A stretch of 8,596 nucleotides of DNA from a bacterium (GTDB lineage: Bacteria; UBP15; UBA6099; DSWB01), in assembly GCA_020061125.1 (NCBI GenBank), contig JAGUYV010000464.1:1-8596 (forward strand), given 5' to 3'. The notes under the pieces were generated by a model that made no database searches, had not been told where the DNA came from, and saw only the letters and a list, made by a program, of their open reading frames with translations. The translations under genes were made by a program, and so were the position numbers. This document shows positions 705 through 4,259 of the stretch, one piece after another (position 1 is the stretch's first letter; each line of letters begins with the position of its first letter).

Positions 705-746
705 ATGAAGCTGCAACACACGAAACATTCACTGCAACGCAACCAC
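705..746 (+). repeat. direct repeat copy A flanking the AT-rich gene
   Basis: This copy starts ATGAAGCTGCAACACACG, continues with ACATTCACT and ends ACGCAAC. It matches copy B at 1369-1410 over about 42 bases with a handful of differences. The two copies lie 664 bases apart, in the same orientation, on either side of the AT-rich gene at 894-1253. Confidence 0.75.
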
Positions 747-1368: not shown

Positions 1369-1410
1369 ATGAAGCTGCAACACACGACACATTCACTTAA
1401 ACGCAACAAC
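1369..1410 (+). repeat. direct repeat copy B flanking the AT-rich gene
   Basis: This copy starts ATGAAGCTGCAACACACG and carries ACATTCACT before ACGCAAC, as in copy A at 705-746. A short CGTTTA lies in front of both copies, at a slightly different distance. Composition returns to GC-rich soon after it, so copies A and B roughly mark the edges of the AT-rich segment. Confidence 0.75.
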
Positions 1411-1445: not shown

Positions 1446-1766
1446 TCAAACAGTAAGCGTGGGGCTGTTGAACAACCCCCGACAGAAATAGGCTACTCTG
1501 CGATATTCACCATCCGTACGCCATGCGCCGGGCAATAGCTGCGACCTGCGATAATTTCGCGAAAACGCAATAGAAGGACTTACAAGGGCCTCCAGCGCCG
1601 CCAGAACGCGCCGCAAAGAGGCCGCGAGCCTCTTGAGATTGATGGCTGCGGCGGTGAGACAGGCCTGAATTTCCACATTGGCCATGCCGCGGCGGGCGGC
1701 GCGCCGCAATCCATGCGGCCATCAGTGTTCGCGCAAGGCCAGGGCTTTGTCATCCGCTTCTGAATG
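1446..1766 (-). pseudogene. decayed 3' end of an IS1182-like DDE transposase
   Basis: Reading the minus strand from about 1766, the frame gives DKALALREH, a TGA stop (1722-1724), then WPHGLRRAARRGMANVEIQ and LTAAAINLKRLAASLRR. The HGLRRA.RRG....IQ..LTAAA.NLKRL pattern is the conserved C-terminal end of DDE transposases of the IS1182-like group. Everything N-terminal of it, including the catalytic residues, is missing, and the remaining piece contains an in-frame stop. The open frame then continues past the element tip at 1461 to a stop at 1446-1448, so its last residues are not original coding sequence. Family assignment rests on motif recognition only. The piece is clearly non-functional. 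Confidence 0.7.
1461..1766 (-). mobile_element. insertion-sequence remnant, left tip retained
   Basis: The tip GGGGCTGTTGAACAACCCC (1461-1479) can fold on itself and matches the reverse complement of the tips at 88-99 and 131-142. The transposase 3' end lies directly inside it, which is the expected arrangement for an element end. Only about 300 bases of element sequence can be recognised. The right boundary is not visible and is placed where transposase-like coding stops. No target-site duplication could be identified. Confidence 0.5.
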
Positions 1767-1825: not shown

Positions 1826-1849
1826 CAACCCCAAAAGGAGCAGGAAACC

Positions 1850-2488
1850 ATGGACCAGACATTGATGGCAGAAGTGGAACGGCTCAAGGAGTTTTTCGAC
1901 GCTGTGGACAAAGAGCGGGAAATCGCTTACGACACCGCGCGCACGCTGCGGCGCCGGTCCGTGAAACTGGTGCGGGACTTGCAGCGGCAGATGGATGTGG
2001 ATGTGGAAAAGGAACTGGCCGAATGCCGCGTGCTGGCCGTGCAACTGTCGCAAACGCCGAACAAATTCGGGTTTGTGGAAGAGGCGCTGCAGGAATACGC
2101 CGAGGCGGCGCTGACTTATTCATTTCTATTCGGCAAACCCGCACCCACGCAGGCGGACCTGGGCTGCACCGAACGCACTTACGCGCTCGGCCTTTCCGAC
2201 GCCATCAGCGAACTGCGCCGCCGCATTCTCACGCTGCTGCGCCAGGACGACATCCAGGGCGCCACGGCCATGTTCGATCTCATGGACGATTATTACCACA
2301 TGATTCTGGTCTTCGATCATACCGACGCAGTGTTGCCCCTGCGCCGCAAGCAGGACGCCCTGCGCGCGGTGACCGAACGCACGCGCGCCGACATCACCAG
2401 CATCATCTGCCAGAAACGGCTCGAGGAAAAGATTCCCGGCTTTGAAACGCGCCTGGACTCGGAACCCGAACCCGAAGCCGGGGAATGA
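1850..2488 (+). CDS. translin/TRAX-family protein, probable RNA endonuclease
   Basis: This 212-residue, all-helical protein is of usual translin-family length. The core signature is clear: LQEYAEA (80-86), YALGLSDAISELRRRIL (111-127), then FDHTDAVLPLRRKQD (155-169), typical of archaeal and bacterial members. In human TRAX the catalytic residues are E126, E129, D193 and E197. The aligned residues here are E82, E85, D117 and E121 with the same local spacing. Human translin lacks the Asp, so this is TRAX-like and probably catalytic. TRAX is the nuclease of C3PO, which cleaves single-stranded RNA and helps process tRNA; an archaeal relative forms an octamer. ATG 1850 is preferred over the in-frame ATG at 1808 because AAGGAG (1835-1840) lies 9 bases ahead and 1808 falls in a hairpin loop. 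Substrate and partners are unknown. Confidence 0.85.
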   Translation: MDQTLMAEVERLKEFFDAVDKEREIAYDTARTLRRRSVKLVRDLQRQMDVDVEKELAECRVLAVQLSQTPNKFGFVEEALQEYAEAALTYSFLFGKPAPTQADLGCTERTYALGLSDAISELRRRILTLLRQDDIQGATAMFDLMDDYYHMILVFDHTDAVLPLRRKQDALRAVTERTRADITSIICQKRLEEKIPGFETRLDSEPEPEAGE

Positions 2489-3173: not shown

Positions 3174-4259
3174 ATGAAAGCAGTCATTGCGCTCGCGGAT
3201 GGGACGATTTACGAAGGCCGCAGCTTCGGCGCCACCGGCATCGCCGGGGGCGAGCTGGTGTTCAACACAAGCATGAGCGGGTACCAGGAGATTCTCACGG
3301 ATCCGTCCTACAGGGGGCAGATCGTGACCATGACCTACCCGTTGATTGGGAACTACGGGGTCAATCCCGAGGATGTGGAATCCTCGGGGCCGCAGGTGCA
3401 GGGTTTCATCGTGCGCGAGAACAGCGTGGTGCGCAGCAACTGGCGCGCCACCAGAACCCTGGACGAGTATCTGGACGATCACAACATCATGGGCGTGGAC
3501 CTGGTGGACACCCGCGCCATCACCAGGCACATCCGCGACCACGGGGCGCAGAACGCCGTGATTTCCACCACGCGCAAAACCCCGGAGCAGCTTGTGCGCA
3601 TGGCGCGCGAGTGGCCGGACATGGCCGGGCTGGACCTGGTGCGCGATGTGTGCGTGGACAAGCCCACGGACTGGAACCGCTCGGGCCGGTTCCGCGTGGC
3701 CGTGCTGGACTGCGGCGTGAAGTACAACATTCTGCGCGAACTGCAAAAGCGGGGCGCGCGGCTCAAGCTGTTTCCCGCTCACGGAGATCTCAAGGATATC
3801 CTCAAATTCAAGCCACACGGGGTTATGCTTTCCAACGGGCCGGGCGACCCGGACGCCGTGCCATACGCCGTGGACACCGTACGAGAGCTTGTGGGCCGGC
3901 AGCCCATGTTCGGCATTTGCTTCGGACACCAGATCCTGGGCCTGGCCATGGGAGGCAACACCTACAAACTCAAATTCGGGCACCGCGGAGCGAACCACCC
4001 GGTCAAGGACATGCGCACCGGCAAGGTGCACATCACGGTCCAGAACCACGGATTCTGCGTGGACCTGGATTCCCTGGACAACGCCGCGGACATCGAGGTC
4101 ACGCATCTGAATCTCAACGACAACACCGTGGAGGGCATCAAGCACAAAAAGCTGCCCATCTTCTCGGTGCAGTTTCACCCCGAGGCCTCGCCCGGCCCGC
4201 ACGACACGCTCTACATGTTCGATGAGTTCATGGCTGCGGTGGAAAAAACGAATGCGTAG
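3174..4259 (+). CDS. carA: carbamoyl phosphate synthetase small (glutaminase) subunit
   Basis: CarA hydrolyses glutamine and passes ammonia to CarB for carbamoyl phosphate synthesis, the first step toward pyrimidines and arginine, in the cytoplasm. The 361-residue protein is of normal length. Residues 1 to about 150 form the CarA-specific N-terminal domain (LADGTIYEG, FNTSMSGYQEILTDPSY, DTRAITRHIR). Residues about 173-357 are a class I glutamine amidotransferase with nucleophile C249 in FGICFGHQ and the His/Glu pair H335 and E337 in QFHPEASPGP; SNGPGDP (220-226) is also present. The start ATG follows GAAGG (3160-3164) by 9 bases. The gene lies 242 bases upstream of carB on the same strand, a wide gap for this pair. 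All catalytic residues are present. Confidence 0.97.
   Translation: MKAVIALADGTIYEGRSFGATGIAGGELVFNTSMSGYQEILTDPSYRGQIVTMTYPLIGNYGVNPEDVESSGPQVQGFIVRENSVVRSNWRATRTLDEYLDDHNIMGVDLVDTRAITRHIRDHGAQNAVISTTRKTPEQLVRMAREWPDMAGLDLVRDVCVDKPTDWNRSGRFRVAVLDCGVKYNILRELQKRGARLKLFPAHGDLKDILKFKPHGVMLSNGPGDPDAVPYAVDTVRELVGRQPMFGICFGHQILGLAMGGNTYKLKFGHRGANHPVKDMRTGKVHITVQNHGFCVDLDSLDNAADIEVTHLNLNDNTVEGIKHKKLPIFSVQFHPEASPGPHDTLYMFDEFMAAVEKTNA

Follow-up and report, generated by a model that had tools for sequence, protein, structure and literature searches.

The window, that is, the whole 8,596-nt stretch of DNA analyzed here, encodes a TRAX-type member of the translin superfamily from a bacterium of the uncultured candidate phylum UBP15; its homology to TRAX, its predicted fold and the conservation of the acidic quartet of the TRAX active site are all established. 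By analogy with its archaeal relatives, this protein most likely forms homo-oligomers and acts as a metal-dependent endoribonuclease on short single-stranded RNA. TRAX is the RNA-cutting subunit of C3PO, a helper of eukaryotic RNA interference (RNAi) that removes guide or passenger strands once they are nicked, and the ancestral C3PO is thought to have been a single TRAX-type nuclease. The single-copy bacterial homologs with a full active site described below, mostly without a detected Argonaute, could reveal the role of this RNase before its recruitment to RNAi.

Table 1 Features of the window
Feature	Position	Strand	Basis or comment
Bacterial TRAX-type translin-superfamily protein, 212 aa	1850..2488	+	phmmer, profile, AlphaFold model
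Likely ribosome-binding site (AAGGAG) serving the start at 1850	1835..1840	+	Direct sequence reading; precedes 1850 by 9 nt
E82 codon, predicted metal ligand	2093..2095	+	Invariant in 46/46 rows; aligned to AfTrax
E85 codon, predicted metal ligand	2102..2104	+	Invariant in 46/46 rows
D117 codon, counterpart of the Asp replaced by Ala in 3zc0	2198..2200	+	Asp in AfTrax and the UBP15 proteins; Glu in most other bacterial homologs
E121 codon, predicted to be a catalytic acid (E197 in human TRAX)	2210..2212	+	Invariant in 46/46 rows; role of E197 from PMC9246224
Direct repeat, 42 nt	705..746		90% identical to 1369..1410
ORF without family, 119 aa	894..1253		A+T-rich
Direct repeat, 42 nt	1369..1410		90% identical to 705..746
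Transposase remnant	1446..1709	-	NCBIfam NF033551, E=2e-4
carA	3174..4259
carB, half length, 555 aa	4502..6169	+	Ends after the oligomerization domain

Sequence evidence for a TRAX-type protein

A phmmer search of the PDB sequences identified AfTrax of Archaeoglobus fulgidus (3zc1; E=1.3e-11, residues 12-194) and NEQ131 of Nanoarchaeum equitans (5jr9; 5.6e-6) as the best solved relatives of the protein. When a profile (A4) built from 14 prokaryotic relatives was run against the PDB chains, the matches were led by AfTrax (1.7e-42), NEQ131 (2.4e-28), human TRAX (7.6e-14) and fly TRAX (7.9e-12 and 1.4e-10), followed by translins at 5e-7 and weaker (human translin, 5e-4); this order, with the TRAX chains before the translins, assigns the protein to the TRAX branch of the superfamily. 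The Pfam Translin model (PF01997), against which the first-pass annotation had proposed to check its TRAX assignment, yields on its own 16.6 bits, below the curated cut-off of 25.9, so that this check holds for the profile of relatives, which reaches both TRAX and translin chains, but not for the Pfam model. A search of the whole genome with the latter at E 0.001 produced no match; the curated Translin model can therefore miss bacterial TRAX-type proteins of this kind and, being too distant, was replaced by protein and alignment queries in the genome searches. Scanning of a collection of genome contigs with the protein alone detected no relative, an alignment of four sequences used as the query retrieved five UBP15 loci, and no relative was found among the viral contigs and plasmids searched.

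The NCBIfam PRK14562 models (NF011156-NF011161) match the protein over its full length, with E values from 4e-15 to 1.5e-39 and scores below the curated cut-offs of these models; given the full-length match at the latter E value, they apparently represent prokaryotic TRAX. These models carry the name 'haloacid dehalogenase superfamily protein', which does not fit the fold and appears to be wrong, so that the NCBI model set seems to misname such proteins.

An alternative start upstream, at 1808, would give a longer frame; because the homologs begin near 1850 and the AAGGAG motif precedes that position at a distance of 9 nt, the 1850 start is preferred.

Acidic quartet, conservation and phylogeny

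The translation contains LQEYAEA and YALGLSDAISELRR, and the positions of the acids E82, E85, D117 and E121 are set by the motifs LQEYAEA and YALGLSDAISELRRR. The first-pass annotation had recognized here a complete TRAX quartet and had suggested an alignment with archaeal homologs, which bears it out: in the phmmer alignment, the four acids land on QELVEA and FADAVGELRR of AfTrax, that is, on its E, E, D and E. The two AfTrax entries 3zc1 and 3zc0 differ, D vs A, exactly in the D117 column; because the alanine is in the RNA-bound entry, 3zc0, this Asp was changed by mutation for that structure. E82, E85 and D117 presumably are the equivalents of human TRAX E126, E129 and D193. The human counterpart of E121, E197, is a catalytic residue (PMC9246224).

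In an alignment of 46 rows from UBP15 and other bacteria (four rows are the same gene entered twice), position 117 is acidic throughout, with D in 8 rows and E in 38, the other three members of the quartet being invariant along with G114, R124, R165 and D169. The rows with D at this position come from UBP15 and a single further genome (G073); all remaining rows have E. Thus, the bacterial homologs outside UBP15 (L025-L032 and L036-L065) have, in all but one genome, an E-E-E-E site. Ahead of the first catalytic helix, the loop of the UBP15 proteins is about 6 residues shorter than in the other bacterial homologs, which might alter substrate access. In the phylogenetic tree, the UBP15 proteins form one clade (support 98/99), and the archaeal rows are on very long branches.

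Predicted fold

The AlphaFold2 model, made from six UBP15 sequences (mean pLDDT 85), is all-helical over the 212 residues, and its best Foldseek matches are AfC3PO and NeC3PO. In VIA-align comparisons, Z was about 21 for AfC3PO and NeC3PO (for AfC3PO 3zc0, Z 21.2 at 1.9 Å over 185 residues); human TRAX (3pja) reached 19.9, translin 16-17 and the first clearly unrelated helical row 9.7. The model thus has the all-helical translin fold. The superposition on 3zc0, together with the sequence alignment, implies that the four acids would meet in one three-dimensional site. Taken jointly, the single-sequence match, the profile match and the structural Z score put the resemblance to TRAX that the first-pass annotation had claimed far beyond chance.

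Comparison with known systems

With AfTrax/AfC3PO (3zc0, 3zc1), the UBP15 protein shares full-length homology, the fold, the E-E-D-E quartet and a single subunit type; it differs in its bacterial host and in the shorter loop that leads into the first catalytic helix, and the two are 25% identical. NEQ131/NeC3PO (5jr9, 5jrc, 5jre), which is likewise archaeal, is similar in fold and acidic quartet at 20-21% identity. Human and Drosophila TRAX in C3PO (3pja, 3axj) have the same fold and catalytic quartet as well, but the eukaryotic chain is longer and pairs with a translin paralog, whereas no second paralog was found here.

Translin-superfamily proteins of eubacteria, archaea and eukaryotes are the subject of Gupta et al. 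2012 (J Mol Evol 75:155), as cited by PMC5424206 and PMC8762117. Bacterial TRAX having already been described there, the UBP15 protein extends an established family to one more bacterial phylum rather than representing a novel type of system, and the earlier remark that bacterial members are little studied is fair, provided that this survey is kept in mind. The same survey reportedly includes single TRAX-type genes in Chloroflexi.

Distribution and gene neighborhood

The observation of the first-pass annotation that no second paralog accompanies the gene extends to the genome: no second TRAX-type paralog was found in the window genome, which is 79% complete, so that one could be missed; the chance of this is smaller in the UBP15 genomes G001 and G003 (92-95% complete). 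The gene is present in 6 of the 7 UBP15 genomes examined, once in each; the seventh, G002, is 97% complete and has no TRAX homolog, which shows the protein to be dispensable. Among the 386 genomes of a broad sample, all 15 positive ones, 9 of them outside UBP15, have one copy each. In a second bacterial phylum, that of G010, the gene was detected in 175 of 201 genomes (87%), with two matches in 3 of the 175 and a single copy in the others. Outside these two phyla, homologs are sparse.

Across the UBP15 families, there is no conserved neighboring gene, the shared flanks of loci L009-L011 being confined to one genus, and reading of the neighboring frames revealed no recognizable partner gene beside the other bacterial copies; a PEP-CTERM protein adjoins one copy in the G010 phylum. 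TRAX-SepRS operons have been described in archaea (PMC5424206, PMC8762117), and no SepRS gene was recognized in the frames read beside the bacterial copies. Within the window, no RNA families or tRNAs were found. Bacterial RNase P RNA was detected in 5 of the 7 UBP15 genomes (it was not found in the incomplete window genome), so the TRAX-type protein is not a likely replacement for RNase P.

Probable function and its alternatives

We consider it quite probable that the protein is a stand-alone bacterial C3PO, in which copies of one TRAX-type subunit would join to form a closed barrel; short single-stranded RNA would be cut in its interior, at a metal held by E82, E85, D117 and E121. Both homo-oligomerization and RNase activity are suggested by analogy with AfTrax and NEQ131, which work without translin; in particular, N. 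equitans Trax alone degrades RNA via oligomerization (PMC9051087). Following the Nanoarchaeum C3PO, 'single-strand-specific endoribonuclease' would describe the protein better than 'structure-specific', the term of the first-pass annotation.

A different reading draws on eukaryotic translin, which has the same fold, binds nucleic acid and has only E197 of the quartet in common with TRAX (PMC9246224): the protein might be a non-nuclease member of the superfamily acting by RNA or single-stranded DNA binding. However, the protein retains the whole quartet, whose positions are acidic in every homolog examined, and the profile puts AfTrax and human TRAX far above human translin, which makes this reading unlikely. 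The idea that the sequence belongs to a helical-bundle protein of another family, with acids matching TRAX by chance, could appeal to the sub-threshold Pfam match alone, but is refuted by the PDB and profile matches, a fold score far above those of unrelated helical bundles and the invariance of the quartet; its probability is negligible.

An Argonaute-linked RNase clearing nicked guide or passenger strands would correspond to the known role of eukaryotic C3PO, and one UBP15 relative, G003, does encode a Piwi protein. Yet no Piwi domain was found in the window genome (at its 79% completeness) or in 5 of the 6 other UBP15 genomes, nor was one recognized among the neighboring frames; with Piwi not found in 6 of 7 UBP15 genomes and no conserved neighbor, a role in RNAi is very improbable. 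For the stand-alone C3PO, the scarcity of Piwi in the phylum, the RNase P RNA of the relatives and the lack of a linked partner gene point to Argonaute-independent RNA turnover or trimming as the cellular job, with tRNA-derived fragments or other short pieces of RNA as possible substrates. More tentatively, and as a possibility rather than an expectation, bacteria of at least two phyla might possess, almost universally, an RNase system that is built from TRAX homo-oligomers, cuts single strands independently of Argonaute and has tRNA-derived or other short RNAs as substrates; its active site would be E-E-D-E in UBP15 and E-E-E-E in most others.

Other features of the window

Just upstream of the TRAX gene, the C-terminal end of an IS1182-family transposase survives as a remnant. 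Farther upstream, the two direct repeats flank the ORF without family, where G+C is about 30% compared to about 60% in the gene-rich part; the 705-1410 region is possibly a mobile cassette. Downstream, carA is accompanied by the half-length carB. Four other UBP15 genomes have half-carB frames (558-599 aa) with 69-72% full-length identity, and in a fifth the frame is cut by the contig end; separate full-length carB frames are located elsewhere in these genomes. The carA and half-carB pair is a conserved extra unit in UBP15.
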